From positions 2,155,501 to 2,219,500 of the forward strand of contig JARUPZ010000021.1 in NCBI GenBank assembly GCA_031213475.1: DNA of 64,000 nucleotides. Reading direction: 5' to 3'. Made by a program: the position numbers and the translations under genes. Numbering within the stretch: the first letter of the stretch is position 1; each line of letters begins with the position of its first letter. The notes beneath the pieces were generated by a model. The model saw nothing but the letters and a program-made list of their open reading frames with translations. It was not told where the DNA came from and made no database searches. Origin of the DNA: Nereocystis luetkeana (taxonomy: Eukaryota; Sar; Phaeophyceae; Laminariales; Laminariaceae). Below, in pieces: positions 12,271 through 55,825 of the stretch.

Positions 12271-12287
12271 GGGGGGGGGGGGGGGGG

Positions 12288-12800
12288 TACTCGATAGGAG
12301 AGATGTACTCGATCCCATGCATGGCCGTAGTCGTATGACCATAGACCCTCGCATCCCTACAATGCCGGGACGGAGCATGTCGGGTTTTCACCGACCAGGC
12401 AGACATTGCTTGCACCAAGCGCGAAGCGCCGTGAGGTGTTGGGCGAGTCGCATGAAGGGTGAGCTGCGTCCTACTAAGATCCGCTTTTGAGGCGGACTTG
12501 CATATGGACGACAGCTTCAACGAGTTGATTTAATTTCCGGTGTAGGCATTTCCAGAGACAGCAATGGAAGTACTATGTAACTGCCTCTTGGGTGCCTTAC
12601 CTTGAACACTACGTGATACGATCATTCCCAATTGTGCGGAGGAAAGGTTCGTTACCTCGCACAAATGATGTAACTCGACAACCAGCTGTGGGCGACCGCC
12701 AAATAAAAACCAAAAACGGTAACCTGGTTGTCTAGCTCACGTAGTGAGCGGCATGTTTTACAGTGTCGCTGCCAACCGACGCCAACCCAACCTATATAGC
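12288..12800 (-). mobile_element. SINE-like element, full-length copy 1 (poly-C flanked)
   Basis: A 513-bp non-coding element on the minus strand, matching the plus-strand copy at 53,654-54,163 over its whole length. The sense head is CTATATAGGTTGGGTTGG and the sense tail contains CGGCATTGTAGGGATGC, GGCCATGCATG and TCGAGTAC. Both ends run into poly(C) on the sense strand (G runs at 12,271-12,287 and 12,801-12,811 on the plus strand). The tail GAGTAC plus poly(C) matches the LINE 3' end ATGAGTAC plus poly(C), so it probably borrows that LINE's machinery. No clear tRNA promoter boxes were found. Confidence 0.75.
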
Positions 12801-13059
12801 GGGGGGGGGGGAGGGATAGTGGAAGACGGGTGGTATGACTATTGCTTTCTGCGCCATCCGACAAAGTGCAGGGTGGATGTCAAATCACAAGAAATGACGA
12901 GGAAACAGAAAACAAAGACTACCTCCGAAGTATACGTTAAAGCATAGAGGTGCGACAACCAAAAAAGTGAATATTCACACTAACAAGCCTTCTTCAACCA
13001 ACATCACGGCAGTACTAATTGTCGGGCTCAATGCGCTTCAGATTGTTGTGATATCACCC

Positions 13060-13159
13060 CCGTAGATGCACTCGGCGATGAAACACTCTGCTACGGGCCT
13101 ATTGACACCCCGTAGATGCACTCGGCGATGAAACACTCTGCTACGGGCCTATTGACACC
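13060..13159 (+). repeat. Exact 50-bp tandem duplication
   Basis: Two adjacent 50-bp copies (starting CGTAGATGCACTCGGCGATG) are identical. In a region where other repeats are diverged, this points to a very recent duplication or an assembly artefact. Confidence 0.9.
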
Positions 13160-13197
13160 ACTGGATTAAACAAGCCATCCTACTATCAATGCTAATC

Positions 13198-13672
13198 CTT
13201 TTTTTTGATACACGATGGCAACATCATGCGCTTCCTGTCTTTCTCAAGAGAAATTCGAGGGCGCACTGGGATCATATCCCCGACACCGAATTGCTCGTGT
13301 GGCAAAGCAGTAGAGAGTAGAACTCACATAGCAGGAGAATGTGAAGTGCACAAGGAGAAACGGGATGTGTTAGAAGAGGAGATGAGGGAAAGAAAAAGAG
13401 ACGAGGGATGCAGACTAATGTGACATGGAGAAGTTTGGTGCACTAGACAGCAGCGAGACTACGATCGATATCCTAGGAGATAGAGGGTGGCCACAGGCGG
13501 CCAAACAGCAAGGGGATAATAGTAGCTAAACGTTTCTATGGGATGTATGAAAACTACTAAATGGGCACCCTCAACTGTTGGAGGTGTCTCTATTAAGAGA
13601 AGAAACGGTGCTCCGTCTCGAAAGGGATGCGTGGTCAATGGTCAAATGACTAAGGCAAGCAACAAATGAGGA
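13198..13672 (+). mobile_element. LINE 3' fragment, divergent subfamily (copy C)
   Basis: 5'-truncated plus-strand copy. It keeps the finger region (CSCGKAVESRTHIAGEC followed by EVHKEKRDVLEEEM) and the untranslated tail ending GCAAGCAACAAATGAG, then an 11-bp C run at 13,673-13,683 and further C-rich sequence. Upstream of the finger it differs from copies A and B, so it belongs to an older or separate subfamily. Confidence 0.85.
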
Positions 13673-14827
13673 CCCCCCCCCCCTGCCCCCCTCGCCCCCC
13701 CCCTTCCTCCCCGTCGGGAGATCAAAATACATCATGTCGGTTTGTATCTTAAGGGCTTCCTTCGCGGAAATACGCAATATTGGGCATTTCTACGATTGCT
13801 TAGACTCGCCTTTTATCGGTATTTCTTGGATATCCCATCAAAGCCTCGTGGGAGGCCCACGGGATACGCTCGAGAGTCTCGAAAGGGAGTCCAGTGGAAG
13901 TGCAATAAAGCAGATACCACGGGAGCGCCATGGAAGCATCCTAGTCAATGGGATTTCACTAATGCCCCCTTGGAACCCCCCATGGGGGGCAAACGGGAGT
14001 CTTGGGGCGATCTAGGGCAGACCCATGACAGGCCTATGGTAGACTCATGGCAGACCTACGGCAGGCCCATCGAAGACCCATGATCTAGCACCGTGTGTCC
14101 ACCCATGGGCGTCACATGGGAATCCCATGGAAAACCCATGGAAACCCCAAGGGAGAACCATTTTCCCACAGGAGACCCATGGGAGTCCCATGGGATACCC
14201 ATGGAATTTTCATGTGAGACACATGGGCCGGTCTACTGCAGTATAGGCCCACATCAGATATCCATTGCAGACCGGCAGTGGTTTGCAGACGCAGAGTAGA
14301 CCCTGGCAGACCCATTGATGACCCGTGTCATGGGCAACCCATGGGCCAGCTCTCTAAGCCCATGGGACACCCATGGGATACCCAGAGGCCAACACAGCAG
14401 TGATTCCATAGAACTTCTAGGGGGGACCGATGGGACCACAACGAACCTAAGGAAGGCTTATGGGCGACCCATGGGGCCAGTACGATACCCGTACGAGAGG
14501 GGACCCATGGTGAAACACTATGATCCCATGGGAGACTCCGGGAAGATCCATGGGAGACCCATAGCCGACCCACAAGCTAGGACTCTAAAGTCACTACAGT
14601 AGGAGCCCATGGGCCACCCCTGGACCAGCACTAGGAAGCTATGGGTGTCCTATGTGTCTCCATCGGATACCCACGGTCGTCCCACGGAAGTCTCATGGGT
14701 TGGCACTGTGGTCCCATGGGAGACTTAGAAAAGAAGACCCGTGGAAAAATTACGAATGGGAGACCCATGGGCCAACACTATAAACCTGTGGGAGGCCCAC
14801 GGGTAACCCGGGGAGACCCATTAGCCA

Positions 14828-14935
14828 ATACGGGGGTCCATAATGAATAAGACCAAATATTGTTAGTAAACATAACGAAACATATAGGTTTTTGAGTGTA
14901 CCGTAGGTCCTATTTAATATGGTCTCCCGTAATAG
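14828..14935 (-). mobile_element. MITE family A, copy 3
   Basis: Inserted in CATG array I in reverse orientation (AAATATTGTTAG precedes the GTAGGTCCTATTTAATA arm). The right end CCCGTAATAG is intact; the left end has lost a few bases. Its insertion post-dates the array. Confidence 0.85.
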
Positions 14936-16309
14936 TACTACAACCTGATGGGAGACCAATGAGAAACCCACGAGAGACCCATGAGAGACCCCTGAGAGAC
15001 CCTTGGTCCAGCACTAAGACCCCAAAGGGGACCCATGGGAGGTGCATGGGCCGTACTGTCGGGAGTTTCATGGGTTACCCATAGGGCAGGAATACGAACT
15101 CATAGGTGATCCATGCGCGACCTATGCGCCAACACTGAAGCGCCAGCGCTGTAAACTCATGGGACACCCTTACACCAGCACTATATAGGAACGGGAGTTC
15201 CATCGGCCAAAACTGTACGATTCCATGGGAGACTCACGGACGACACATGGGAAAACCATGGCCGACCCGTGAGTCAAGTCGCACTTCGAAGCCATGGGGT
15301 ACCCATGATCGACCCACGAGGCAGTATTATAGTCGCATGGGAGAGCCATGGGGCGACCCATGAGCCAGTCCTGTAAGCACATGGGAAATCCATGGGTCGG
15401 CACATTAAAAAACCGACGGAAATTCCATGGGTTATCCATGGGGTAGCTGTCGACATACCATGGGAATCCCATGGCACAATACTATGATGCCATGGGAGAC
15501 GCATGGATGCCCCACGGGAGACCCACGGGAGACAAATGAGTCAGCGGGAGAAATTAATAGGAAGGCCGTTGGCGACCCATGGTCGATCCTTCGGTCAGTG
15601 CTATAAACGCATGGGCGACCAATGAAGCTGCACTATAAGTGGACGGGAAGTCCCACGGGTTGCCCCTCATATTTCTAGCCATGGACATCCCGTGGTAGTT
15701 CCATAGACCAACGCTACGATCCCATAGAAAACGCACGGGCAACCCATGGGCCTCCCATGGGCCTCCCATGGTGTTACATTTATGGCCCATGGCTCACCTA
15801 TTGGTCTTCTTCGTGTGTTGATAATGGAGCCATGGGTTTAGCATGTAAATCTCATGGGAACACGAAGTCGACTCATGGTACTCCCATGGGTCTCCCATAT
15901 AGGCCTCTCATGGGTTTATAGGTCTGGCCCATGGGTCTCTCATGGGTCTGGCACGGGCCTCCCAGCGGCCTACACCATGCAACTGCCATATGGGTCTCCC
16001 ATAGGGTTACAATGCTGGCCCATGGGTCTCTTATGGGTCTCCCGTGAGGCTCTCATCTAGATTTCCCAAATAATCCTCGTGTTCCCATGGGTATCCCATG
16101 GTTCGTTCAATTCTGGCGCGTGGGTCGCCCATGGATCTTTTTGCGGGTCTTGTGTTTCCCCTGGGATCATACTGTTGGCCTATGGGGCTAGTATGGGTTT
16201 ATGGGAGGCCCACGGATAGCCCATCATAGGTAGCCGGGACCACCCCCCTTGCATACTATGCGCGTCAACAAACACCTGCGGAGACATTGCACAGTGTAGC
16301 ACACTATCA

Positions 16310-16430
16310 AGAGTAGGCGTGCCGAAGTGAGAGACTTATCGACACGTCATGGGGTGTGCTACGTTGTTCAATGTCTCCATAATGGGTTTTTTGGGCCTAC
16401 ATTGTGCAAGGCGGGGGTCCCAGCCATCTT
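16310..16430. mobile_element. Diverged relative of MITE family D
   Basis: GCCGAAGTGAGAGACTTATC and CGACACGTCATGGGGTGTGC correspond to the left arm at 7,040-7,080. The text after it (GTTGTTCAATGTCTCC, ACATTGTGCAAGGCGGGG) matches 7,170-7,245. The right arm is not clear. Confidence 0.5.
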
Positions 16431-16690
16431 TGATGGGAACCCTTAGGTTTATGGGGCTGGTCCATGGGTCGCCAATAGAACTCGCGTGGGCCTCACAAGG
16501 GTGGTTTCTTGGAACTTTCGTGGGTCTCCCACGGGTGGTCTCATAGAACTTCCTTAGTAGGACCTCATTGCTCAAGGTGTTTCTATGGCGCCTCCATGGG
16601 ATCTCCATGACGGTCCCATGGGATTACCATGGGACCCATGGGGCTACCAGTGGAAGCCCATGGGCATTCTTTGGCAGTGGGACTTCCTCC

Positions 16691-17157
16691 TGGGGCTTCC
16701 GAGAACGACAAATACTACTGTATATCAACCGGGTGCTTTGTTGTACCAAAACGCTTGGAAATGGAGTGGTGCCCGGTACAACGTTTGCCGCGTGACATGC
16801 GATAGCGCCGAAGACTACAGCACCTTCGCCTATAGCTCTTGCAACTGTTTTCTTGCAGCGAATAGCCTATTGCTATTTCTTTTACGTTTCGTAATTTTGT
16901 GGTGCGCCTTCAGAGGACGAACAAATGCATCGATAGGCTGCGCTTAGAGCAAGTTTTTTTCGTCGATCCATCAAGCAGATTCAGGTGCCAGAGTATAGAT
17001 TCGGCCGATATCATCACCCATTCATGTAAGGTGGTGTTTGTACCTCGCACATGTAGAGTAGGTGCTATATGGGTATGTTCTCGCCCCACGTGACTACTGC
17101 TGTATTTTTACTGTCGTTACAGTACCGTTGAGTTCGCACAGGGGTGCGTTCGTTTTT
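16691..17157. other. Unannotated stretch
   Basis: No exon with paired splice sites, RNA gene or element is recognised between the CATG array and the duplication at 17,158. Confidence 0.3.
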
Positions 17158-17391
17158 CAACGGTCGATTTATCGAGGACGGGAAGGTTACCAGTACCGAA
17201 AAACCGAACAACAAGGTGTTCTCGGAAAGATCCGGACGAGAGTCTTCCGAAAGCATAATGTTCGGCCTTGTCTAGCGGTCGATTTATCGAGGACGGGAAG
17301 GTTGCGAGTACCGAAACACCGAACAACAAGGTGTTCTCGGAAAGATCCGGACGAGAGCCTACCGAAAGCACAGTGTTCGGCCTTGTCTAGC
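17158..17391 (+). repeat. Tandem duplication, about 116-bp unit
   Basis: Two adjacent copies beginning CGGTCGATTTATCGAGGACG differ at a handful of positions. The period is not a multiple of three, so the reading frame changes between copies and a coding function is unlikely. Each unit ends GTTCGGCCTTGTCTAG. Confidence 0.85.
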
Positions 17392-17929
17392 GCACCCTTA
17401 CCGTCGCTGTCGAGAAAACGAGCGCTGAAGAACGATCTCATCCCCTGTGCAACTCGACGCTCTTTACGGTATACTCCCTGATGCTTTACTTACAACAGTT
17501 GGGTGGCGAAGTAGACCAGCTATCTGACGTAGTATATGTCTAATGCATGTTATCACTGTTATTTTGTTTTCCAAATTCCCTTTCCCATTTTACCGCTGAG
17601 AGCTGCTGGTAGAAAGGGAGCAAGGTCTTGAGTTTTGAAAGAAAAGTTAGAAATCTGCAAAAATCGGGGAGTTGGAAATGTGAAAAACTCGGGAGGGAAA
17701 ACAGTGAACGAGGCAAAGCGAACACACGTCGAACCACCCAAAGGCGCCAGTGAGATACAAAAATTAAATGCAGAATTCTTCAATTTTCCACACGCAACTG
17801 ATAATAACTAAACTACAAGACCTAACCAACTAACGAACTACTGTAGTCGGCAATCTATAATCAGCCAACTCACAGCCAACACTAAGGTTTAAGACGCTCC
17901 ACATATCGGACAGCTCAAATAGCTCATTC
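17392..17929. other. Unannotated stretch
   Basis: Purine/pyrimidine-skewed, with no supported exon or repeat family. Confidence 0.3.
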
Positions 17930-18530
17930 CCACTTTATGATCTGGATATTTCAGAGCAGACAGATCGATTCCTCATCTGTGTGATCTGCATGATCTACAG
18001 TAGCTCATGTTCCTGGGTTACAGTCATGTGCTTCGCTTTATTTAGGAAATATTTCCTGGGGTGGATTTGCGCTCACGGTATACATAGAGTTCCCACACAG
18101 CACCTCATAACGGCGGGCTGTTAGAGATCTAACGTAACAGCCTCGCATAGGGCAGACTACGGCAGTAGGATCTACAACAGAAACAGTAGGTGAAGACCGT
18201 GAAATCTGCATGATCTCGGATATGTCTCCTGGGTTGAATCTGTGCTACGGGCAGCAGACAGGTCCTACACAGCACCTCATCACGGTGGCTTATGACAGAT
18301 CCGGCATCGCATCTCGTATTGGCAGGTTAGGATCTACAGCAGTACAAATGCAGCAGGGGACCTTATAATCTGCTTAATCTAGGGCATGTTTCCTGTGTTG
18401 AATATGGGCTAGAGGATACGTACAGATAGATCCTGCGCCGTACCTCATAACGGTTGGAAATTCCAGGTCCAGCATAGCGTCTCATAATAACAACAGTCTA
18501 GGATCTACAGGTGATCTACATTAAATTATT
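17930..18530 (+). repeat. Degenerate tandem repeat, units about 150-180 bp
   Basis: Words GATCTGCATGATCT, CTCCTGGGTTGAAT, ACAGCACCTCATAACGG and TAGGATCTACAG recur in the same order three to four times. Related sequence lies at 25,540-25,740 and, inverted, at 58,300-58,560, so this is a dispersed family. No conserved frame. Confidence 0.65.
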
Positions 18531-18574
18531 ATATTGCCCGACGTGTGCAATACCGGCATGACATGAAATCGCAC

Positions 18575-26815: not shown

Positions 26816-26848
26816 CAATGTGCATCATACCATACACCTCTGTCTCAC

Positions 26849-27079: not shown

Positions 27080-27468
27080 CTCGCAAGCACGGAAGCAAGC
27101 GGATGGCGCACGTGCGGTAATGGGAGGACGCCACGGACGGTGGAGGGGGAGGAGGCAGGTTTCGGGCTACTTTATTTCGAGTTGCGAAGGCGTGCTGTGG
27201 CAGGAAAAGAGCACCCAATTAGTCTGAGCTTCCTCTCTGGTCACAAACGTACGACACGGAGATAGTACATAGTAGTAGATGCACGCAACCGATAAAAATA
27301 ATATGTTGTGAGACACCTATATTCAAAATAATAAGGATGTGCAACCCGACGACGAATTTTTTCACGGGCCTACGGTACGCATATACAAGCAAGGGTACAC
27401 GCACAAAAAGGAAAACGGTGAGATACCGAGATACCCCGCTTATTTCTTTTTTTTATCCCAGACAGGGC
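27080..27468. other. Unannotated stretch before LINE copy A
   Basis: No supported feature. Confidence 0.3.
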
Positions 27469-27845
27469 GGGGGGGGGCGAACTCATTTGTTGCTTGCCTT
27501 AGTCATTTGATCATTGACCACGCATCCCTTTCGGGACGGAGCACCGTTCCTACTCCTAATAGAGACACCTCCAACAATTGGGCGCTCATTACGTTGTTTC
27601 CATGTAATACATAGAAACTTTTTGCTAATCTCATCCCCTTCTTCCTGTTTGACCGCCTGTGGCCACCATCTATCTCCTAGGATAGCGATCGTTTTCTCGC
27701 TGCTATCTAGTGTGTCAAACTCCTCCCTGTCACATTCTTCTATTTCCCTCATCTCCTCTTCTAACACATCCCGTTCCTCCTTGTATATTTCACATTCTCC
27801 TACTAAGTGAGTTCTACTCTCTATCGCTTTGCCACACGGGCACAT

Positions 27846-29291
27846 CTATACATCTATTTCCTCCTCCTCCCGGCTACTGGTATACCTCTTTCTTCTTTCT
27901 GGCAAGTCCAGGTCACCTACACGAAACCGCAGCTTCAGCGTTTCCGCGAAGTCCATTGGGCCGTGCAGAGATGTTTTCATTCCTATTCCTTCCCTCAATC
28001 TCCCGTATATCTCTAGGTGTTTTTCCGATTCCACCTTGTTTCGTAGCGCTAGCCTTTCCCTTCTTTCTATCCTTTCTTCTACTTCTGCCTTGTACTTCCC
28101 AAACTTCCCGGCGAACATCACCTCTTCTTGGTTTCCCCCTATATCCTTCCATACTTTCTCAACTACGCTATCCCACCTTATTCCAGTTCGCCCTTTTGTT
28201 ACTTTCTCCCATATAGCTTTATCAACTATGGCCGGTAACCTCTTATTTGGCATGTTCCTTACTTTATATTGCCATTTCAACTTTCTCATATCCCTGTTTG
28301 TCTTGAGTGGGTGTATTCCCAGGTCTGCTCTTAATACTGTATTACTAGTCGTACTTGAGCATCTTAGGAATTTTGTAGCTGCTGTCATATGTTGTACTGT
28401 TTCCAACTGTTTTACGAGTTTCGCATTCCCTTCCCATGCTTCTCCTGCATATTCTAGCTTTGGTACTATCACATTGATCAGGATACATCTCTTAATCCTG
28501 GTGTCAAGGTGCGAGTCTGTAAGGATCGCATCCATCTTGCCTATGTGTGGTTTACCCTTTCTTATTACTTTTGCTATATGTGTATCCCAAGAGCAGTCTT
28601 TTGAGATCCCTACGCCAAGGTACGTATACTGGTCTACGATCGGCAATTCATCTTCTCCCCACTTCCAACTGGAATTCATCGGGTTCACCTTATCTTCGTT
28701 ACAAACAACTACTGCGCATTTCTTGACGTTCGCCGTCACCCTCCATTTCCTAGTGTATTCTAGCGCGTTCTCTATTTGTTTCTGCAATCCTTCGGGTGTT
28801 TCTGATATCCCCACGAAGTCATCAGCAAACATCAATCCCGACACTGTATCTTCCCCTACCGTGACTCCCTGCCTTGCTGCTTCAACTGCTACTATCAGGT
28901 CGTTACTATATATCTTGAATAGGTTGGGTGATAGCGTACATCCCTGTGCAACTCCTTGTAAAATATCAACATACTTCGATATTTCCCCGTCCAGCATCAC
29001 AGCACTTCTCGCACATTCCGTCATCTTTTTCATCATTCTCCACATCTTTCCTCTGATTCCTATTTCCCATAGTTTTTTCCTCGATCCATTTCTCCATACT
29101 GTGTCGTAGGCCTTCTGTGCATCTATTAATAGAAAGAAACAGTACGTTGTTAGTCCCGCGTCTTTCCTACCTTGGATTATCTTACCTAGAGTGTACACAT
29201 GGTCTACGCAGCTACGGTTTGGCCTAAACCCTGCTTGCCCTTCGCTTATTTTGTCTTCCTTCTCCATCATCAATCCCATTCTATCGTTCAA
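27846..29291 (-). CDS. LINE copy A reverse transcriptase segment
   Basis: Open for about 480 codons. Contains the RT fingers and palm motifs named for the element, including FADD, the catalytic Asp pair of non-LTR RTs (usually F/YADD). The C-terminal part (YTSSREEEEIDV) ends at a stop directly before the zinc-finger segment, which is open in the same frame. Reverse transcribes the element RNA at the nicked target in the usual target-primed mechanism. Over 95% alike by eye to the copy B product. Not a host gene. Confidence 0.9.
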   Translation of the reverse strand: MNDRMGLMMEKEDKISEGQAGFRPNRSCVDHVYTLGKIIQGRKDAGLTTYCFFLLIDAQKAYDTVWRNGSRKKLWEIGIRGKMWRMMKKMTECARSAVMLDGEISKYVDILQGVAQGCTLSPNLFKIYSNDLIVAVEAARQGVTVGEDTVSGLMFADDFVGISETPEGLQKQIENALEYTRKWRVTANVKKCAVVVCNEDKVNPMNSSWKWGEDELPIVDQYTYLGVGISKDCSWDTHIAKVIRKGKPHIGKMDAILTDSHLDTRIKRCILINVIVPKLEYAGEAWEGNAKLVKQLETVQHMTAATKFLRCSSTTSNTVLRADLGIHPLKTNRDMRKLKWQYKVRNMPNKRLPAIVDKAIWEKVTKGRTGIRWDSVVEKVWKDIGGNQEEVMFAGKFGKYKAEVEERIERRERLALRNKVESEKHLEIYGRLREGIGMKTSLHGPMDFAETLKLRFRVGDLDLPERRKRYTSSREEEEIDV

Positions 29292-29951
29292 AATCTTACA
29301 AAATGCTTTGCCTGCTGTGCTTAGCAGCGGTATCCCTCCATAGTTTCACGGGTCAGCCATATCTCCTTTCTTGAATAAGTTTACTACTACTCCTTCTCTC
29401 CACCTCCTAGGTGCGTGCTCGTTTTCCGTATCCAGCTACACAAGATAACCAGCATGGTAAGTAAGCGTTCCTTCTGCCCCGTACTTCATAAATTCATTCA
29501 CTATTTGGTCTGCCCCTGCTTCTTTTCTATTCTCAAGTTTAGCTACACATTTTTTTACCTCTTCCGTTTTGTGAACTCTCTCTGTAACCCTTCCGAACCA
29601 CTGTCTTCCCTTTCTGATGCATCTACGTTCGCCTCTGCCCCCGCGTTGATTTCCTTCTCGAATTCTGCGTCGAACGTTTCGTTGGCTGTGGGTGTTCCTA
29701 GCTTATTACGGCAATGCTCGACAAGTACTTCCCCTTTTCCCTTCGAACTACTAACCATTTTACCGTTCTGTGCTCTTAAGGTAGCTATTCCCGTGTCAGC
29801 CTCTCCTGCTTGTTTGCCCAGTATCCCTTTTATCCCTACCCACATCTGCTTCATCCCGCCCTCAAAGTCTTCATTCGTTTTATTTACTACGTCTTTCCAT
29901 ATCCCTTTCTTCTTCTTCTCTACCATCTCTTTTACTTTCTTTCTAGCTACA

Positions 29952-30740
29952 TCATATTCCTCCCATCCTGTCGTAGTTTTGCTCGATGTATACCTTGCGT
30001 GTGCCTTTCTCCGTACTGTTATTAGCCTCTTTCACTTCTTCATCCCACCATTTTACTGCTCTGTTGCATACTATCAACTTTTCCCCTTTTACTTTACCTG
30101 CTGTGGTCTTGACCAACTTCTCCCATCCTTCTATTATCCTAGCTCCTGCAACATCCCTCTCTATATCGTTCCTTGTTGTACCTATTCTTTCCAATAACTC
30201 GGAAAATTGCTCTGCATTTTTGACCATCTCTTCTCGGAACTCTTCCCGTTTCTCTTCTACTTCTAGTTTATCTATTCTCCATCTGTGTAATTTCCTACCT
30301 CGTCTTTGTTTGATAACTCTTGTCTGTCGGCTGTCTATCCATATTAGACAGTGATCCGTAGTTCCTGCGTCCGCTGCGCATACATGTAGTTCTGTTTCCT
30401 TCCCACTTCCGTTTTCTACTACTACAAAATCCAGGATAGAGCTTTCTCCTTTTTGTATGCACTGTCTAGTCCATTCCGGTTCTGCCTCTTTTACTCTGTC
30501 GTTCAACGTCTTCATCTCGTTGTGTATGAGGAACTTCAACATCTCTTCCCCATTCTTATTTTTTGTTACTTCCCCATACTGTCCAATGCTCTCATTCAGT
30601 TTGCTTGCCTTCCCAATTCTTGAATTAAAATCTCCCACTAGTACTACTTCTCCTTGCCTTTTATACTTCTGTACATCTACTGCTACTCCTCCGAACTTCC
30701 TCTGTATATCTTTTATCGTATTCTTCGACTCTCGGGGCAT
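29952..30740 (-). CDS. LINE copy A endonuclease C-terminal part and linker
   Basis: Open for about 260 codons with VVLVGDFNSRIGK and ADAGTTDHCLIW, matching the GDFN and (S/T)DH motifs of AP-like endonucleases. The N-terminal half with the metal-binding IQESWE lies in a separate open stretch at 30,852-31,037, so the domain is interrupted. This enzyme would nick the target. Given the flanks it may recognise poly(C). Confidence 0.8.
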   Translation of the reverse strand: MPRESKNTIKDIQRKFGGVAVDVQKYKRQGEVVLVGDFNSRIGKASKLNESIGQYGEVTKNKNGEEMLKFLIHNEMKTLNDRVKEAEPEWTRQCIQKGESSILDFVVVENGSGKETELHVCAADAGTTDHCLIWIDSRQTRVIKQRRGRKLHRWRIDKLEVEEKREEFREEMVKNAEQFSELLERIGTTRNDIERDVAGARIIEGWEKLVKTTAGKVKGEKLIVCNRAVKWWDEEVKEANNSTEKGTRKVYIEQNYDRMGGI

Positions 30741-31444
30741 ATAGATGTTTCCTAAGAAGTGATCTTTCGCTCCCCGCTCCCCTGGTATCTTAATCCATAT
30801 GCTTTCGTCGAAGTTAGTGTCTTTGGTCTCCTCTATTATGTCACACAGGTATTATTTGACTAGGAACCCCACGCCCCCCGACCTCCTATTCTTGCTATTC
30901 TGTCCCTTCCTCTTCTTCCCTATCCATGCGTACTCTCCAACTTTGCATCCTATCTCCCCCCCCTCTTTCTCCCATGACTCTTGAATTCCAACTATGTCTA
31001 GGTCGCGCTTACTTGATTGTTCGGCAATTTCGATCAATTAGCGCTCTTCCGTGGCGAACCCACATACGTTCCATGATCCTATTCTCAGCCTATTTTCCTT
31101 TTCACTATCCGCTCTAGTCTTACCTGTTCCTTCTCCGTGGTCGCTATGAGTATTTCTGTCATCTCTTCTTTGAGTATTTTCTTTCCATTTCCGTTTCTGT
31201 TTTCGTCTTCTTGTTCTACGCCCCTATGTTTCTCCCCCATTCCCTGTGAGCCACTTGCTGTTTCCTGCCTCCCCTTACCTTCGTTCACCCTAGGACTACG
31301 TCTTAGTTTCGCTATTCCATTAGCTATACATACTCTCCATCCAAGTCTTCTAACCCATGCCGACACTTTTTCGGTCTCTATTCTCTGCCACTCCATGCTC
31401 GCTTTCGGCTTTATTTAGCGTGACTCGAATGTGGGGGGGGGGGT

Positions 31445-33229: not shown

Positions 33230-33253
33230 CCCCCCCCCCCCCAAAAAAAAAAA

Positions 33254-33361
33254 CAACTCTGCCTGCCTGGTCAGTGAAAACCCAACATGCTCCGTCCCGG
33301 CATTGTAGGGAGGCGAAGGTCTATGGTCATACGACTGCGGCCATGCATGATAATGAGTTTA
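33254..33361 (+). mobile_element. SINE-like element, truncated copy 2
   Basis: Only the sense 3' part is present (CTGCCTGGTCAGTGAAAACC to GGCCATGCATGATAATGAG). It has poly(C) on both sides: 33,230-33,242, followed by an A run, and 33,362-33,381. A truncated copy with poly(C) at its 5' junction supports insertion into a C tract. Confidence 0.8.
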
Positions 33362-33439
33362 CCCCCCCCCCCCCCCCCCCCACATACACACACAAAAACC
33401 CTCCCAAAACCTGAATTTTCAACAACAACAAAAAAGGTC

Positions 33440-38672: not shown

Positions 38673-38689
38673 TTCCTGGTGGATATTTA

Positions 38690-40012: not shown

Positions 40013-40036
40013 TTTACTATGTCGCCCCTCCTTCAT

Positions 40037-42815: not shown

Positions 42816-43486
42816 GGGCGGGGGGGGGGGGGAAGGGGTACTCATTTATTTGTTGCTTGCCTCAATCGTTTGACCATTGACCACGCATCCCTTTCGAGAC
42901 GGCGCACCGTTCCTACTCCTAATAGAGACACCTCCAACAATTGGGCGCTCATTACGTTGTTTCCATGCATTATTACATAGATTTTTTTGTTAATCGTATC
43001 CCCTTCCTGCGTGGCCGCCTGTGGCCACCATCTATCTCCTAGGATAGCGATCGTTTTCCCGCAGCTATCTAGTGTGTTAAACTCCTCCATGTCACATTCG
43101 TCTATTTCCCTCATCTATCTCCTCTTCTATTACATCCCGTTCCCCCTTGTATATTTCACATTCTCCTACTATGTGAGTTCTACTCTCTATTGCTTTGCCA
43201 CACGGGCACATCTGTGCATCTATTTCCTCCTCCTCCTCCCGGCTACTGGTATACCTCTTTCTTCTTTCTGGCAGGTCCAGGTCTCCTACACGAAAGCGCA
43301 GATTCAGCGTTTTCGCCAAGTCCATTGGGCCGTGCAAAAAAGTTTTCATTCCTATTCCTTCCCTCAACCCCACGTATATCTCTGGGTGTTTTTCCGATTC
43401 CCCCTTATTTCGTAGCGCGAGCCTTTCCCTTCTTTCTTTCCTTTCTTCTACGTCTGCCTTGTACTTCCCAACCTTCCCGGCGGACA

Positions 43487-45922: not shown

Positions 45923-47068
45923 ATCTTCCCCGTTCTGATTGTTCGTCGTCCGTTGTTCTCATTCAGTTTGCTTGCCTTTTCTTGGATTAATCTCCCACTA
46001 TTAATAGTACACTTATTCTTGCCTCTCATACTTATGTGCATCTGCTGCTAATTCTCCGGACTTCCTCTGTATATATTTTATCGTGTTCTTTGACTCTGGG
46101 GGCATATAGATGTTTCCTAGGAAGTAAAATTTCGCTCCCCGCTCCCCTGGTACCTTAATCCATATGCTTTCGTCGAACTTAGTGTCTTTGGTCTCCTCTA
46201 TTATGTCACACAGATATTCTTTGACTAGGAACCCCACGCCCCCCGCCCCCCTATTCTTGCTATTCTGTCCCTTCCTCTTCTTCCCTATCCATGCGTACTC
46301 TCCAACTTTGCATCCTATCTCCCCCCCCTCTTTCTCCCATGACTCTTGAATTCCAACTATGTCTAGGTCGCGCTTACTTGATTGTTCGGCAATTTCGATC
46401 ATTTAGCGCTCTTCCGTGGCGAACCCACATACGTTCCATGATCCTATTCTCAGCCTATTTTCCTTTTCACTATCCGCTCTAGTCTTACCTGTTGCCCCTT
46501 CTCCGTTGTCGCTACGAGTATTTCTGTCATCTCTTCTTTGAGCATTCTTTCCGTCTCCATTTCCGTTTTGTCTGTTTGTTCCACGCCCCTATGTTTCTCC
46601 CCCATTCCCTGTGAGCCACTTGCTGTTTCCTGCCTCCCCTTACCTTCGTTCACCCTAGGACTACGTCTTAGTTTCGCTATTCCATTAGCTATACATACTC
46701 TCCGTCCCTGTCTTCTAACCCATACCGACACTTTTTATGTCTCTATCCTCAGCCACTCCATGCTCGCTTTCGGCTTTATTTAGCGTGACTCGAAAGTGTT
46801 CTCCCTCTCGTTCTACAATTCCTATTGCGAAGCAGTACAGTCCTACTTCGCCGCGCTTCCTCTTGAACCCAATCCCCCGTCATGTCGCTAGGAACTCCAA
46901 ATATCAGTACTTTGCCCTGCCAATCTTTCTTGCTCCACCCACCCAGCCTCGTCGTCTTTCTCCTAATCTCTTCCGAGAATATCTCCAGCTTGTTTGTGTT
47001 CATAATGGTAGTGGGAAACGTTCAAGTTACTATTAAGAGGACTTCCCAATCCTAGTACTCGTTGGGGG

Positions 47069-47218
47069 ATGTGTACTCGATAGGAGAGATGTACTCGATC
47101 TCATGCATGGCCGTAGTCGTATGACCATAGACCCTCGCATCCCTACAATGCCGGGACGGAGCATATGTCGGGTTTTCACCGACCAGGCAGGCATTGCTTG
47201 CACCAAGCGCGAAACTCG
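47069..47218 (-). mobile_element. SINE-like element, truncated copy 3
   Basis: The sense 3' part runs from the GCTTGGTGCAAGCAATGCC region to TCGAGTACACAT, including the tandem GAGTACATCTCTCCTATC tail. Its 5' side joins 19 C (sense; G 47,221-47,239) and its 3' side joins a short CCCCC, then the 5' start of LINE copy B in the same orientation. Confidence 0.8.
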
Positions 47219-47467
47219 TTGGGGGGGGGGGGGGGGGGGTTACGTTTGGGCTCAAAATCATAGAATTATCTTACCGGTGGGGTCTCCCTCCTCTACATAA
47301 GAGAGGAAATACCCAATACACTTACGTGTGAAGCAATCTTATTACAAGAACGGGGGGGACGAGGAGCGTGACAGATAGATGCTCCTACCTGGTCGGGTAT
47401 CAGTGATGAGTGGCTCCCCCGCCAGAAAGGAACACTACCCAACACACTCATTTCTATCATAAATCAC

Positions 47468-48944: not shown

Positions 48945-48984
<40 letters not shown>

Positions 48985-49800: not shown

Positions 49801-49859
49801 GTCCCCTCCTCACCCACCCCTGTCCTCTCCTCTTCATCCCTTAAGAATTACACCCAAGT

Positions 49860-50400
49860 TATTGGGTACAACTTCTTGGAATCAGTGTGGGGTCATTTTC
49901 GCACATGGGAAAGGGTTAAAAAGGCAAGGCCCCGAGCCCCTTCCTCCCCGACCTATCCTTCCTTCCCTCCGGCTTGCAAGGTGCCATTTGCGGGTCGATT
50001 TATCGTTTCCGCGCAGAAAATTCCGAAGAAAAATCCGAGAGGGTTGTGGTATTTTTTGGTATTCGTCGTTGGAAATTGCTTCTACAGTGCGGAAACTTCC
50101 GCAGAAAATTCCAAGAGGTTGAGGTATTCGTCGTCGCAAAATTCTTCTGCATGCCCACCGCAACTCTATTTCTGCCCGGAGCACACAATGTCCGACGGCC
50201 AGACGTCGGAAATACGAGTGCCATCACCCCCCCCCTCGCAACCCCCCCCCCCCCTCCCCCCCCCTCCGTGTACGCCTCCGGGCTGCCGTCATGTGTGCAA
50301 ACCCATCGTGTACACCCACCCCGGGTTCTGGGGCTCCTGCCCGCCTTCCGGCGACCGCACCTGGACCTGAATCCCTAAAAAGTACGCCTGCATCACCGGG
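49860..50400 (+). repeat. GCAGAAAATTCC repeats and C tracts
   Basis: TTCCGCGCAGAAAATTCCGA, CTTCCGCAGAAAATTCCAAG and GGTATTCGTCG occur twice to three times in 49,995-50,150. C runs lie at 50,227-50,264. A plus frame downstream of the C tract encodes PPGCRHVCKPIVYTHPGFWG and ends at a stop at 50,368; it may be a terminal exon but lacks a definite acceptor. Confidence 0.4.
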
Positions 50401-51058
50401 AAAACCAATGAAAAGCGGCGGAACAGAAAAAAAGGTTCATCCTTTTAGAGTAGCAGACCCGATTGGTAGCTATAGGGGTGCCCTAAGCCCTACTTCGAAA
50501 AATAAAAGGCCTCGCGCTGGCGGCCCCATGTAAACGTGCACTATTAATAGCCGGCGATTTCGCGAACAACTGAAGAAAAAAGAAACGGACACATGCGGTT
50601 TGAAAAATGAACAGCACCAACCGCACCAACCCAAACGCCCCGAACCCGAATTCCGCAGCGTCAGATTTTATCCCCTTTCAGTAAGAAGCCGGAGCGACAC
50701 ACACAGCTTTGCAAAAAATGAGTTTTCGAGGGAGCTTGTCGGACGCGACAACCAACCGTATATACACGAGAAAAAAAAAAAAAAAAACGAAACCCAACTC
50801 GTTTTTCTTCAAGCCCCAGACAGGGGTGGGGGGTTATTGACAAAATCAAGTAAACACAAGCTGAACAGAAACAAAAAAACAGGTTTGGATTTTATGTAAT
50901 TTATGACAAAAATCCCAACCCGTTACACGAACATTTAATTACGACGTGGTGGCGAGCGCGGAGACGTTTTCTCTGTTTTCATGCGTGTGCGTGTATTTCT
51001 GTGACAGCTCGTGCGTTTTTTCTTCTTCAAAATACATCCTGCCTGAGGTCGTGTGTAT
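50401..51058. other. Unannotated stretch
   Basis: A-rich runs near 50,770-50,790. Would lie downstream of the LOV exons. Nothing recognised. Confidence 0.3.
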
Positions 51059-51150
51059 CCCCTTTAGAACCGCAGTCCCGTTTTGGGGACAAACTGCTTG
51101 AAAGATGACTGGTTTGTCCCCAAAACGGGACTGCGGTTCTAAAAGGGTTA
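51059..51150. mobile_element. MITE family B, copy 4
   Basis: Near-perfect hairpin: arms CTTTAGAACCGCAGTCCCG and CGGGACTGCGGTTCTAAAAG around GTTTTGGGGACAAAC and its complement. Right end AAAGGGTTA. Confidence 0.9.
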
Positions 51151-51238
51151 CAACCCGTATCACGCGCGATCGAAGTATCGCATCACACACATACCGCTTG
51201 TTTTGCAAAAACACCACGACTTTTGACGAACATCCTCC

Positions 51239-51357
51239 ATCTCCCAGCTAGCTGCTGATATTGTACACCAAAAAAGTAAAGAACCCGTTTTTTGCTTGCA
51301 CCCGGGTATAATACATACCTGGTAGGCAACATAAGCCTCTCTTCCTAAACGACTCAC
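51239..51357 (-). CDS. Possible last beta strand of the LOV domain, reading disturbed
   Basis: Minus strand. At 51,278-51,261 a frame reads YFFGVQ, preceded by KKRVL, matching the last LOV strand (usually YFVGVQ, with the flavin-contacting Gln). It is one base out of frame with the main LOV exon. Three readings are possible: (1) a short intron from the GTGAGT donor at 51,357; (2) removal of 7 bases of a TACCAGGTA word (51,316-51,324 in complement), which restores one frame to YFFGVQ; (3) the T-rich stretch is only a polypyrimidine tract before the acceptor ATATCAG. The sequence alone cannot decide. Confidence 0.45.
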
Positions 51358-51504
51358 TAGGTTTCCCGACGCATCGAACAGCGGTGTTAAGAAGAACTGG
51401 TTGTGGAAGGTAGAGCCGTCCTTTTTATAGTTGAGCAGGCAGAGACACGCCTCTCGCTTCTCCTCGACTGCTGCTCGGATCTTAGAGATGTCCCCAGGAT
51501 CCGT
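51358..51504 (-). CDS. LOV (flavin-binding PAS) domain exon, C-terminal half
   Basis: On the minus strand, acceptor GAGTAG precedes 51,504 and donor GTGAGT follows 51,358. The exon is 147 bases, 49 codons, phase 0 to 0. It reads TDPGDISKIRAAVEEK, CLCLLNYKKDGSTFHNQFF, LTPLFDASGNL. In known LOV domains these are the helix after CRFLQG and strands G and H; the two Asn in LLNY and FHNQ are the flavin ring contacts (FHN replaces the usual FWN). LOV domains bind FMN and sense blue light. In stramenopile algae they occur in aureochromes and helmchromes. The partner exon with the photoactive Cys is at 53,253. Family membership beyond LOV cannot be told. Confidence 0.85.
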
Positions 51505-52250
51505 CTACTCGTTGCCTCGTTGTCCGTCGAACATTTTGGCCCAACCGCGCGGTTTTTATTGTTATTTTCGTCGCGTCGTTTTGTTTTTAACAGTTTTCAG
51601 TTTCCCGCGGTCGTTGCCGTGTCAAAATTCGGACAACGGAAATTGTGCATCGAGAATCAAGTTGGAGGCCGCCGACACCACAACATGTTTTTTTGTCGAT
51701 CGAATCAGGTACGCGCAAGGGGCGGGGGGGGGGGTGGGGCGGCGTACACCAGGAGTAGGCAAGAGAGGCGAAGAGGCGGAGACAGTCAGAGGATACACGA
51801 TAGTACGGGGGGGGGGGGGGCATACCAGCATACCAGCACAGCAATCGGAATCAAATAGTGTGTGCAAGCATACGGGAATATATACGAGTTAAGTTTTTTT
51901 GGGTCCATCGTGAGTTCTGACTGCTGTAGCCCCTCGTACTATTAACAGCGCTGGATGATATATCGAAGGAGAATCAATCGGGGTCAACGCGACACTGATA
52001 GGCACAAGAATAAACTGATACTCGAACGATTTCGATATCCGACGCATCGAAGGATTCGTTCATCATCGGCAAAAAGAACAGAGGAGTGCCAGACGCCGGA
52101 GCGAAAAACACCCTCGATACGATATGTCAAAAGTTCGGCAGTTTGACAGCAGGTATATCGGATAGTTCGAGTCGACCTCTAAACCTCAAGCACTGAGCAA
52201 ACACAAAAAGGAGGCAGGAGAACTCATCACTTCTCGCAATGACTACTGCT
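51505..52250. other. Putative LOV intron, left part
   Basis: Holds G runs at 51,724-51,734 and 51,807-51,820. Nothing coding recognised. Confidence 0.4.
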
Positions 52251-52254
52251 GTAG

Positions 52255-53230
52255 GTCGAATAATAGCAATCGTAACGGGAACGGGCACGGAGACGGTAAC
52301 AATGACGGAAACGGATGTGTACGAGTACGGTAACCGTAACAGAAACAGTAACTACAGCGGTAACGTCAACAGCAACGGTAGCGGTATCGGTAACGGTAGC
52401 AGTAACAGTAACGGAAACAGCAACAGTAACTGTGGCGGTAACGGTGATCATAACAGTGACGGTAACGGGTGTGTACGAGTGCAGCAGCCGCAACAGAAAC
52501 AGTAACTACAGCGGTAACGTCAACAGCAACGGTAGCGGTATCGGTAACGGTAGCAGTAACAGTAACGGAAACAGCAACAGTAACTGTAGCGGTAACGGTG
52601 ATGATAAGAGTGACGGTAACGGGTGTGTACGAGTGCAGCAGCCGCAACAGAAACAGGAATTACAGCGGAAACGTCAACAGCAACGGTAGCGGTAGCGGTA
52701 ACGGTATGAGAAACAGTAACAGCAACAGTAGCGGTAACTGTAACGGTAATGGTGATGATAAGAGTAACGGTAACGGGTGTGTGTACGAGTACAGTAACCG
52801 GAACAGTAACAGGAATTACAGCGGTAACGTCAACAGCAACGGTAGCGGCGGTAGCGGCAACAGAAACAGTAACAGCAACGGTAGCGGTAACGATAACAGT
52901 AACGGTAACGGGTGTGTACAAGCACGCTAACCGTAACAGGAGCAGTAACTATGGCGGTACCGTCAACAGCAACGGCAGCGGTAGCGGTAAAGGAAACAGA
53001 AACAGTAACGGTAACTGTAACGGCAGCGGTAACGGTAACGATCACAGTAGCGGTAACGGGCGTGTGCGCGTACGGTAACCGTAGCAGGAGCATCAACTAT
53101 GGCGGTACCGTCAACAGCAACGGTAGCGGAAACGGTAACAGAAACAGTAGCAGTAACAGCAACAGTAACGGTAACAATACCGGTAACGACAACAGTAACG
53201 GTAACGACTACGGTTACGGCAACGGTAAGA
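52255..53230 (+). repeat. GGTAAC hexamer satellite with about 150-bp higher-order units
   Basis: About 1 kb of degenerate 6-bp units (GGTAACG, AACAGT, AACGGTAGC). A marker GGGTGTGTACGAG recurs near 52,315, 52,469, 52,623, 52,776, 52,911 and 53,060, giving steps of about 154, 154, 153, 135 and 149. It lies inside the putative LOV intron. Frames crossing it are open on both strands because the unit is a multiple of three; they are not genes. Confidence 0.9.
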
Positions 53231-53252
53231 CCAGCCCAAAGCGCGACGTCAC

Positions 53253-53277
53253 CTTCGCCCCTTGCAGGAAGCGGCAG
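53253..53277 (-). CDS. Micro-exon with the LOV photoactive Cys motif
   Basis: On the minus strand, 24 bases encode CRFLQGAK, the LOV hallmark (usually NCRFLQG) containing the Cys that forms the flavin adduct. The donor GTGACG follows, and joining in phase 0 to the exon at 51,504 gives CRFLQGAK-TDP, the spacing known for CRFLQGPxTDP. An acceptor GGAGCAG immediately before leaves one C that would complete the expected Asn codon, so a 25-base micro-exon fits. Without that acceptor, the upstream residues (SPAWSS) do not match a LOV domain. The exon for the first half of the domain was not found. Confidence 0.65.
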
Positions 53278-53527
53278 CTGCTCCACGCCGGAGACCGAGC
53301 AGGGCACCAAAACCGACCAATCGCCGCGGAGCACAAGCGAAGCGGCCAGACCATCCCAACGCAACGCAACGCGACGCAGACGATCGGGGAGACGAAGAGC
53401 CGGAGAGATGACGGACGGGCGCGGTACGAAATCAGCACAGTTACCGCGTGGTGCACACAGCATCGCATATGCCAAGTTTTTTCCCCATTGGATTGAAACA
53501 GCAACATTGGCCTTTTTCCGAAACCAA

Positions 53528-53638
53528 GCCACGCGCCCAGACGTTGGAAGTGTCTCTATCAGGAGTAGGAACAGTGCTCCGTCTCGAAAGGGGTGCGTGG
53601 TCGATAGCCAAATAATTACGGCCAGCAACAAATGAGTA
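53528..53638 (+). mobile_element. LINE 3' fragment (copy D)
   Basis: Only about the last 110 bases are present (GTTGGAAGTGTCTCTATCAG, GCTCCGTCTCGAAAGGGGTG, CAGCAACAAATGAGTAC), followed by C-rich 53,641-53,653 and then SINE copy 4 in the same orientation. Confidence 0.85.
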
Positions 53639-53653
53639 CGCCCCCTCCCCCCC

Positions 53654-54163
53654 GTTATATATGTTATATACTGTAGATAGAGTTGGCGTCGATTGACAAG
53701 GACGCTGTAAATCATGCCGCTAACTACGTGAGCTAGACAACCAGAGTACCTTTTTTATTTTTTTCGGCGGTCGGTCATAGCTGGCGATCGAGTTATAGAT
53801 CATTTGTGCGGAATAGAGCACCTTTACTCTGCACAAGGGGAATGATCGCATCACCTATTGCTTATGGTAAGGTACCCACGAGGCAGCACATAGTACCCCC
53901 GTTGCTGTCTCTGGAAGTGGCCACACCGGAAAATGATTCAACTCCTTGAAACCGTCTGTCCTCCAAGTGCAAGTCCGCCTCGCAAGCGATTTTCTTAGTA
54001 GGATGCAGCTCATCCTTCGTACGACTCGCCGAACACCTTACCGCGCTTCGCGCTTGGTGCACGCAGTGTCTGCCTGGTCGGTGGAAACCCGACGTGCTCC
54101 GTCCCGGCATTGTAGCGACGAGAGTATATGGTCATACGTCTACGCCATGCATGAAATCGAGTA
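53654..54163 (+). mobile_element. SINE-like element, full-length copy 4
   Basis: A 510-bp sense copy, collinear with 12,288-12,800. The head GTTATATATGTT is followed by AGAGTTGGCGTCGATTG, CTACGTGAGCTAGACAACCAG, GAGCACCTTTACTCTGC, and the tail CGGCATTGTAGCGACGAG, CGCCATGCATG, ATCGAGTAC. C-rich sequence borders both ends (53,641-53,653 and 54,164-54,176). Confidence 0.85.
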
Positions 54164-54344
54164 CCCCCCCCTCCCCAGTATCGTTCACGACTTGGCCCAG
54201 TTTCGACAAGAAATTGTTGATAGTCAAACTAACTCCTCTATCACATCTTCATTCAACAAAAAAAATCCAGGCGGCCGGCGATAGGGCCAGGGTTTATAAG
54301 CAGGGTTGTTCACGGGACGGGTCAAACCCCGTGGGTCAGGGTAG

Positions 54345-54401
54345 GTCCGGTCGGGTCGGGTCGGGTAAGGTCCTTTACCGACCCGACCCGACCCGACCCG
54401 T
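54345..54401. repeat. GGGTC-repeat hairpin
   Basis: GGTCGGGTCGGGTCGGGTAAGG is answered at once by CCTTTACCGACCCGACCC and a further CGACCCG, giving an almost loopless stem of about 20 bp built of pentamer repeats. Confidence 0.85.
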
Positions 54402-54734
54402 GAGATTAAGCAAAATCCAGGCCCAAGTAGCGGATCGGGTTGTGACCCGTGAAGATCCCTACATGTACCACTTTTTTTTCTTTTTTTTTCTTTTTAGTCA
54501 TCACTTTTACTTTCCAGCCTAACTCGTAGGAGGGTTTACCCTCAGCGATCTTCTGGACAAGCCGTGGTCACAGGTGTCTACCCTTCTCCCCTCGGTACGG
54601 GCCTTTATTTTTTTGTCGCGCATAGGGCTCGGCCTTCCCACTGCTCGTCGATTTCAATCGAATGTGGTAGCTAACTCACGCTCTCGCGCTTTCCGCCAAT
54701 CAATTTCATTTATGCAAGAAAAAGTTCCCACGAG

Positions 54735-54810
54735 CATGCACTCGGTCAGACTCGAACCCACGAAATTGATCTTGATAGGCACGCGGACCACCTACCAAGC
54801 CACCGGGGAC
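54735..54810 (-). repeat. tRNA-derived sequence
   Basis: On the minus strand, A box TGGCTTGGTAGGTGG and B box GGGTTCGAGTCTGAC are spaced as in a tRNA, but the T and acceptor stems do not pair well. Likely a tRNA pseudogene or SINE head, similar in style to the one at 33,730-33,800. Confidence 0.45.
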
Positions 54811-54893
54811 GCCACTATGGGCAAAAATATAAGGACCGTGTATACATTTCATACGAATAGCAATCGGTCCTTATATTTCCGCCCACTGTGGTA
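54805..54893. mobile_element. MITE family E hairpin
   Basis: Arms GGGCAAAAATATAAGGACCG and CGGTCCTTATATTTCCGCCC enclose about 30 bases. A half copy (CGATCCTTATATATCCGCCC) lies at 56,795-56,815. Confidence 0.7.
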
Positions 54894-54995
54894 CATAGAT
54901 GGCCCTTTAACCACTGCATAAAGGACCCCACAACAAATTCCAAGTGATTTGCCCCAAAAACTATGGGTACATAACAGCGGTACTGAAAGTGGTTA

Positions 54996-55090
54996 TAACC
55001 CTTTTAGGGCCACAGCCCCGTTTTGGGACAAACTACTTAAAAATTGTGTGGAATGTCCCCAAAACGGGATTGCAGTTCTAAAAGGGTTAA
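54996..55090. mobile_element. MITE family B, copy 5
   Basis: Ends TAACCCTTTTAGGGCC and TCTAAAAGGGTTAA, with CCCGTTTTGGGAC and GTCCCCAAAACGGGA arms. TTAA is intact on the right. Confidence 0.85.
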
Positions 55091-55369
55091 AGTCAATTAT
55101 CACTCCGGTGGCCGTGAATATAGTCCCCGTTTAGAATATGAACATGAACATCAAATGTTGCTTATATTCTCGGCAAGAGTGGGACATCATTTCAACCATT
55201 TACTTACTCGAAGCCGGGCCAAGGTCTATGGTCCATACGTAGTCTATACACAGCCCGTACAGCTCCGCCCCCCCCCCTCCCCCCTATCGTCATCTCGCCC
55301 GCTTCCTCACTTTCTTCCCTCCACCTCCTCCTTCTCGTACCCCGTAAACCGAGCGAATCCGTCACTGCA

Positions 55370-55825
55370 GAAAATGATAGGGTTGTCCTCCACCTGTCTC
55401 AACGGAGACGCCATGGAGGGCAGGAAGGAGTTCAACCGGGGGTCAGAAGGCGTTGTGGGGGGGGGGGAGGGCAGGAAGGAGTTCAACCGGGGGTCAGAAG
55501 GCGTTGTGGGGGGGGGGGGGGGGGTAATAGTTTGATGATTGCCCGAGTAATGTTACCATTGACCACGCACCCCTTCCGAGACAGTGGGATTGTCTTCCAC
55601 CTGTCTCAACGAAGACTCCACGGGGGCAGGAGTTCAACAGGGGATTATAAGGCGGTGGGGGGGCGGGGGGGTACTTGCGGCATGCATGGCCGCAGTCGTA
55701 TCATCACAGACCCTCGCATACCTACAATGCCGGGGCGGATCACGTCGGGCTTTCACCGACCAAGCAGGGGGGGGGGGGGGGGGCTATATAGAGGCGTAGG
55801 GCAAGGGGGGGGGGGGGGGGGGTGA
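55370..55825 (-). repeat. Composite of G tracts, LINE end and SINE fragment
   Basis: A 51-bp unit (GGGCAGGAAGGAGTTCAACC ... G run) is duplicated at 55,418-55,518. Then come LINE 3' end remnants at 55,525-55,592 (ATTGACCACGCACCCCTTCC), a third diverged copy of the unit, a G run at 55,657-55,671 with one C, SINE copy 5 at 55,672-55,766, and G runs at 55,767-55,783 and 55,805-55,822. All mobile parts are on the minus strand, each bounded by poly(C) in the sense direction. Confidence 0.8.
55672..55766 (-). mobile_element. SINE-like element, truncated copy 5
   Basis: Sense 3' part only (CTGCTTGGTCGGTGAAAGCC to GGCCATGCATGCCGCAAGTAC), with poly(C) directly at both ends. Confidence 0.8.

Follow-up and report, generated by a model that had tools for sequence, protein, structure and literature searches.

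A LINE and a non-autonomous partner that appear to insert into poly(C) tracts in the brown alga Nereocystis luetkeana

A stretch of 64,000 nucleotides from Nereocystis luetkeana (bases 2155501-2219500 of contig JARUPZ010000021.1, in an assembly totaling 465,085,209 bases; hereafter the window) carries copies of a long interspersed nuclear element (LINE) and of a ~510-bp non-autonomous partner, both bordered by runs of C. We consider it probable, at roughly 0.87, that this brown-algal LINE, which has a reverse transcriptase (RT), probably an apurinic/apyrimidinic (AP)-type endonuclease and no 3' untranslated region (UTR), and its partner were both inserted into poly(C) by target-primed reverse transcription. 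In most sampled copies the 3' end meets a sense-strand C tract, and exact target-site duplications start in the tract and continue for 6-10 nt beyond it. In the sampled copies where such a duplication can be read the C tract evidently preceded the insertion, and new copies evidently land in C tracts beside older ones. An earlier note, made from the letters of the window, had proposed poly(C) as the target of this LINE and of a "SINE" (short interspersed nuclear element). Its idea holds as a strong preference, with the tract predating insertion where duplications are readable, and fails as an absolute rule, given that 19 of 63 copies lack a 5' run.

C Runs on Both Sides of the Elements

Self-comparison of the window yields two long LINE copies, three LINE 3' pieces and five partner copies (table 1), so that, together with junction reading, all ten copies of the earlier note (five LINE, five SINE-like) are accounted for. 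Their sense tails had been described as ending in GAGTAC or ATGAG followed by C-rich sequence; eight of the ten end so, the two at 55.5-55.8 kb ending in CTATTAC and CAAGTAC, and the tails (C9, C13, C11, C5TC7 and C17 in the LINE copies; C17, C8, C5, C20 and C7GC7 in the partners) include a run of at least eight C in seven of ten. Poly(C) on the 5' side of four truncated copies was found where reported (C11 at LINE A; C13, C19 and C17 at three partners), and a fifth 5' run that had been missed, C11 at 12801, lies flush with a full-length partner. Of the 32 runs of at least eight C or G in the window, 15 are no more than 70 nt away from the end of an element, and each of these is C on the sense strand of its element; two others fall within LINE copies, as C on the opposite strand, and the remaining 15 are far from any copy.

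To these we added copies from elsewhere in the assembly. For the LINE we took the 30 best loci among 44 matches (of 4,204 candidates, 40 had been scored), a choice biased to young copies; two (L009 and L016) are copies of the window itself, and five of the other 28 (L013, L015, L018, L031 and L033) gave no usable 5' junction. For the partner we used the first 30 places listed for an exact 19-letter core of it that occurs 8,138 times genome-wide (reversed control, 0); all are on one contig, C1, partly clustered, and were not chosen by junction. The 5' junction was thus read in 63 copies (23 LINE loci, 30 partner loci and 10 in the window), scoring a C run of at least seven (C7+) within 45 nt, in the sense of the element.

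A lack of C at the 5' junction of most genomic copies was an outcome that the earlier note had named as telling against its idea. The sampled copies do not show it: C7+ stands within 45 nt upstream in 44 of 63 sampled copies and G7+ in none, vs a background of 1.3% (240 of 18,274 45-mers of the window, both strands, hold C7+; binomial p ~7e-68). The run is present in 18 of 23 full-length copies (a class that includes L075, ~120 nt short) and in 26 of 40 truncated ones, and all four full-length LINEs, together with a fifth copy ~120 nt short, start flush on, or at most 8 nt from, a run of 7-17 C. In the 3' flank, C7+ occurs in 51 of 63 copies and G7+ in one (L035, past its C tract); all 30 LINE loci have C7+ within 30 nt of the 3' end, L019 without GAGTAC. 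The repeat thus flanks most copies on both sides above background, as for a repeat-targeting LINE. C-run lengths in assemblies may be wrong, and both the orientation of the runs and the non-C letters of the duplications are independent of exact length.

Target-Site Duplications and Head-to-Tail Chains

To find duplications, the last 26 nt upstream of the junction, extended by 3 nt of element, were compared with the initial 70 nt of the 3' flank, and exact matches of at least 10 nt with at least four non-C letters were counted; L064, which looks like a paralogue of L059, was left out of this count, and mostly-C duplications (L022, L025 and L028) were left out of the evidence. Ten of 62 copies carry such a duplication, vs 0.8 on average and two at most in 40 re-pairings of flanks among copies. 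The carriers, with the number of C that opens each duplication, are L020 (9), L026 (11), L030 (9), L035 (11), L037 (9), L072/L024 (4), the 47.2-kb copy in the window (5), L046 (12), L052 (1) and L059 (9). Nine of the ten therefore start with 4-12 C, and in L052 the 5' copy of the duplication follows C11. After the leading C the duplications run for 7-10 other positions, one of which may belong to the element; C9-TGCGTG flanks L030 on both sides, C11-ACCCCGGCTC does so for L035 and C12-GCCTCGCAC for L046. Because the duplications start in the C run, the tract predates the insertion in these copies.

The same letters bear on whether the C runs are tails only, that is, whether the element RNA carries terminal C, much as L1 RNA carries terminal A, the 5' runs being tails of older copies or chance. 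The 51 copies with 3' C tracts fit this, as do the 17 of 44 5' tracts that follow something tail-like by a crude pattern; the other 27 have no preceding tail signature by the same pattern, and the non-C target letters between 5' tract and element in L030, L035, L046, L059 and others mark the 5' run as target DNA, so that we regard tails alone as very unlikely. Still less probable is the creation of 5' runs after insertion, by untemplated addition of C or G by the RT or by end-joining. Several 5' runs do lie flush with the element (L011, L069 and LINE A in the window), as it would predict; yet wherever a duplication is readable, the run stands 6-10 nt from the element and the intervening target letters recur after the 3' tract.

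Longer duplications may also occur. Around the LINE fragment at 55525..55582, ~88 bp of flanking DNA is present as two diverged copies, 55380-55467 and 55587-55669, 80.7% identical, which looks like a long, diverged target-site duplication, and L063 has an apparent long, diverged duplication by eye. A search for same-locus empty sites within 351 kb returned matches that are other element chains or overlapping loci and not true empty alleles.

The earlier note had also described head-to-tail order with C tracts between elements, which is indeed present at all three places it named. Across 56 sequences (55 loci and the window), neighbors within 100 bp form 72 pairs, or 68 after removal of four seen twice (L040/L043). 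The orientation is the same in 66 of 68, with C6+ at the joint in 53 of the 66; the two opposite-orientation pairs also hold a C run of at least six. In seven pairs the two elements overlap, by 1-7 nt, and a few of the seven (e.g., L015, L029, L050) may be products of internal rearrangement; with all seven removed the counts are 59 of 61 and 52 of 59. Among 100 listed partner places on contig C1, neighbors lie on the same strand in 8/8 cases at up to 700 bp, 5/7 at 700-3500 bp, 9/17 at 3.5-20 kb and 36/67 beyond 20 kb. In L037, the C tract that separates the end of an older LINE from a full-length partner holds a LINE with an exact 18-letter duplication, an arrangement that shows an apparent order of insertion events. 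New copies evidently land in the C tracts that flank older ones, which gives rise to same-direction chains.

On contig C1 at ~12-18 kb (L040-L043), at least eight partner copies are all head-to-tail, and some units were apparently tandemly duplicated afterwards. Beside the 55.5-kb chain, window positions 55230-55470, which we take from their reading to resemble a PAS/LOV-type exon, hold a 51-bp tandem repeat including a C tract.

Chains might instead be recombination or assembly joins between C tracts, and not insertions. Poly(C) is prone to slippage and mis-assembly, chains are frequent, and the C1 array looks partly tandemly duplicated; on the other side stand duplications bordered at either end by DNA outside the elements (L030, L035, L046) and a LINE-C-partner order that recurs in another contig (P0107), and we judge such joins very unlikely as the explanation.

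Anatomy of the Pair and Its Possible Mode of Insertion

The two long LINE copies are 95% identical across 4 kb by self-comparison, and their frames match RVT_1 at 9.5e-23 and 2.1e-23, an RT of non-LTR (long terminal repeat) retrotransposon type. The longest genomic copies reach ~5.9 kb; their 5' UTR contains tandem repeats, and the coding region is broken in all five copies examined. As expected for a non-LTR retrotransposon, copies show 5' truncation and target-site duplications of variable length. The endonuclease is probably AP-type, judging by relatives P0085 and P0087, which carry precomputed PF14529/PF03372 plus RVT_1. The protein of relatives ends in ...GCVVNGQMTKASNK followed by a stop; the DNA terminus is AACAAATGAGTAC, then C, and the stop TGA sits in the terminal AAATGAGTAC, the last ten letters of the element, so that the LINE has no 3' UTR.

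The partner begins with GTTGGGTTGGCGTCGGTTGG when full length. Its last ~55 nt are common to the LINE, in a box found across 35 aligned LINE and partner ends, which bears out the shared 3' end of the earlier note. In addition, ~45 nt at its 5' end match the LINE 5' terminus (E 1.8e-5; score 33, vs a maximum of 24 in 2000 shuffles), and its middle gave no match in the LINE. No RNA polymerase III promoter of tRNA, 7SL or 5S origin, as a SINE would have, came to light, nor any other sign of descent from a known RNA: ARAGORN (bacterial code setting; degenerate A/B boxes not searched) found no tRNA gene in five partner loci, one partner copy had no Rfam match up to E 1, and the whole window had none at the Rfam gathering threshold. 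The name "SINE" is therefore apt for the common 3' end and not in its classical sense; with a LINE 5' terminus and no tRNA or Rfam match, the partner looks like a LINE-derived non-autonomous element. One partner subfamily has a doubled 3' terminus (ATCGAGTAC-ATCTCTCCT-ATCGAGTAC; window 12288-12320 and 47071-47100, and many partner copies), which also appears as EYISPIEY in open frames of other contigs. A 3' hairpin TGGTC/GACTA, plausible by eye, was discarded, RNAalifold having picked other pairs with no compensatory change.

Table 1. Elements, C runs and associated features, in window coordinates unless a locus is named (C runs in the element's sense).
Feature	Position	Strand	Remarks
LINE copy A	27465..31432	-	5'-truncated, coding region broken; RT frame 27846-29291
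C9, 3' tail of LINE A	27469..27477	-	
C11, abuts 5' junction of LINE A	31433..31443	-	
LINE copy B	42833 to ~47054	-	truncation point inside 5' UTR of longer genomic copies
C13, 3' tail of LINE B	42820..42832	-	
LINE 3' piece	13284..13672	+	then C11 at 13673-13683; 5' junction without C run of at least 7
LINE 3' piece	53533..53639	+	C5TC7 tail 53641-53653, then full-length partner directly
LINE 3' fragment	55525..55582	-	C17 tail 55508-55524
Partner, full-length	12288..12800	-	C17 tail 12271-12287; C11 at 5' end 12801-12811
Partner, full-length	53654..54163	+	C8 tail 54164-54171
Partner, 5'-truncated	47075..47213	-	C19 at 47221-47239
Duplication CCCCCAACGAGT of truncated partner 47075-47213	47214-47225 and 47057-47068		
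Partner, 5'-truncated	33259..33361	+	C13 at 33230-33242; C20 at 33362-33381
Partner, 5'-truncated	55671..55766	-	C17 at 55767-55783; tail C7GC7 at 55657-55671
~100-bp inverted-repeat element	L013 ~56-158; L018 ~227-333; L023 ~1300-1403; L033 ~285-383; also L040, L072		

We hypothesize that the endonuclease would first nick the G strand opposite a C tract, that the 3'-OH of the G strand would pair with C residues at the end of the RNA (...GAGUAC-C), whose transcription possibly continued into the C tract alongside, and that this pairing would prime the cDNA. The other strand would be cut some 6-10 nt beyond the tract, rarely ~80-90 nt, so that the tract is duplicated at each event and C is left on both sides; the shared 3' terminal box would be what allows the partner to be moved. 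This scheme follows target-primed reverse transcription as set out for R2 in passages of PMC3747384. The proposal that each insertion also extends its target tract is one that we infer from the duplications.

Several observations weigh against this interpretation. Nineteen of 63 copies have no 5' C7+ (L019, L027, L029, L072, L040, L043, L044, L049, L050, L051, L056, L058, L063, L064 and L067, and in the window LINE B and the copies at 13.3, 53.5 and 55.5 kb), six of them having C5 or C6. Among these, the 5' junctions of the LINE pieces at 13284, 53533 and 55582 show no C7+ within 45 nt, and that of LINE B has C5 only, its C19 lying beyond a partner that landed later. Twelve of 63 lack 3' C7+ (the 47.2-kb window copy, L041, L044, L049, L052, L054, L055, L056, L058, L064, L065 and L067). 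A duplication distinguishable from a C-only one is present in only 10 of 62 copies, and the state of the empty sites is read from duplications within one assembly. The PF14529 match is at 8.6e-5, below the Pfam cut-off, in one of the two window LINE frames, with none in the other; RNAalifold on the aligned ends gave no covariation support for a 3' RNA stem; and the strand nicked and the priming by C residues are both inferred. Copies without C7+ may be old, rearranged or bounded by long duplications, or a minority entering elsewhere, and the preference for C runs is strong but not absolute.

Whether LINE, partner and poly(C) form one self-propagating system is, in our estimation, evenly balanced. 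Elements would end where poly(C) begins, copy the tract by duplication and reuse the tracts left behind, so that long poly(C) would be largely made and spread by the pair as it grows directional chains; the RNA may even acquire its C tail through transcription of the target tract, in which case tail and target would be one sequence.

Several LINE and partner copies contain an inserted ~100-bp element whose ends are inverted repeats (TTACGGGGG...CCCCCGTAA); it looks like a small non-autonomous DNA transposon. In L080, the 5' region of copy L075, ~570 bp is inverted relative to another LINE copy. Genome-wide, 150 RT matches were scored (~126-130 bits, with frames of up to 1293 aa); they seemingly belong to a different, more uniform RT family than this LINE.

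Relatives and Known Systems

Named RT relatives of the LINE are mostly Ectocarpus proteins, including P0006 (71% over 81% of the query) and P0003 (52% over 89%); a Laminaria digitata record has partner-like frames, and Sphacelaria rigidula has a LINE frame. As a proxy for the DNA beyond the end of the partner we took open frames that cover it in other contigs (665 found, of which 120 were listed and used). Proline runs of at least three (CCN codons) come after the end of the partner in 44 of 119 tails that have 16 readable residues; among control windows taken from these frames the figure is 9 of 215. In P0107, seven prolines connect a LINE end to the partner that comes next, and P0044, P0072 and, less clearly, the Ectocarpus protein P0046 have proline-rich read-through after the LINE end. 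Since proline codons need not be CCC, this evidence is weaker than that from DNA. A search of other genomic and viral contig collections found no DNA of the LINE/partner family. P0020, which is recorded under a Parasphingorhabdus metagenome assembly, shares 84% identity with the LINE over 42% of the query and is probably algal contamination of a bacterial bin.

If our interpretation is correct, a plain homopolymer, poly(C), joins the targets of LINEs, and, as tail and target are here the same, the question of whether base-pairing of RNA to target sets target choice becomes directly testable. The pair would offer a source for the poly(C) tracts of this genome and an explanation for one-directional element chains: selfish DNA continually renewing its own landing sites, with insertions leaving C runs on both sides and further copies piling up head-to-tail. 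It would also suggest an origin for the 5' end of partner elements of the Ectocarpus kind.

LINEs that insert into simple repeats are well established. Dong targets TAA repeats and Waldo ACAY repeats, and the telomere-repeat LINEs TRAS and SART stack in one direction. Togen inserts in (TG)n and is placed near NeSL, a group with a restriction-like endonuclease (PMC4640811). The present pair resembles Togen, Dong and Waldo in inserting into a simple repeat and differs in that its target is a homopolymer; it differs from Togen also in that relatives of this LINE carry AP-type domains. With TRAS/SART and, as far as passages of PMC12857005 describe it, FoTeR, it has in common a repeat as landing site, whereas the repeats here are interspersed C tracts and not chromosome ends.

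The closest parallel in organism is Ectocarpus, for which passages of PMC12477816 describe an abundant RTE-X LINE and an abundant ~600-bp non-autonomous element, RTEX-N1_Ec32, sharing its 3' end. The two pairs are alike in belonging to brown algae, in the abundance of the LINE and in a partner with the LINE 3' end, and are likely related. The 5' region of RTEX-N1_Ec32 could not be placed by its authors, whereas the partner 5' end here matches that of the LINE; those passages of PMC12477816 mention no C tails, poly(C) targets or chains.

RTE-clade pairs such as Bov-B/Bov-A2 are described, in passages of PMC3747384 and PMC1291365, as having a short 3' UTR, a partner with the LINE 3' end and sometimes the 5' end, and AT- or A-rich tails, and green-algal RTEX tails as varied, including (CA)n, (CAA)n and (CCAT)n, among others (PMC3747384). 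The very short 3' UTR of RTE and RTE-X, the shared partner ends and the non-A repeat tails of RTEX all find a counterpart here. The AT- or A-rich tail of RTE does not, the tail of this LINE being C; distinctive too are the complete lack of a 3' UTR and a (C)n tail identical to the target sequence. Among the matches listed in the open-access literature we found no LINE that targets poly(C) and no poly(C) target seeding chains, whereas microsatellite-targeting LINEs and LINE/SINE pairs are already known.

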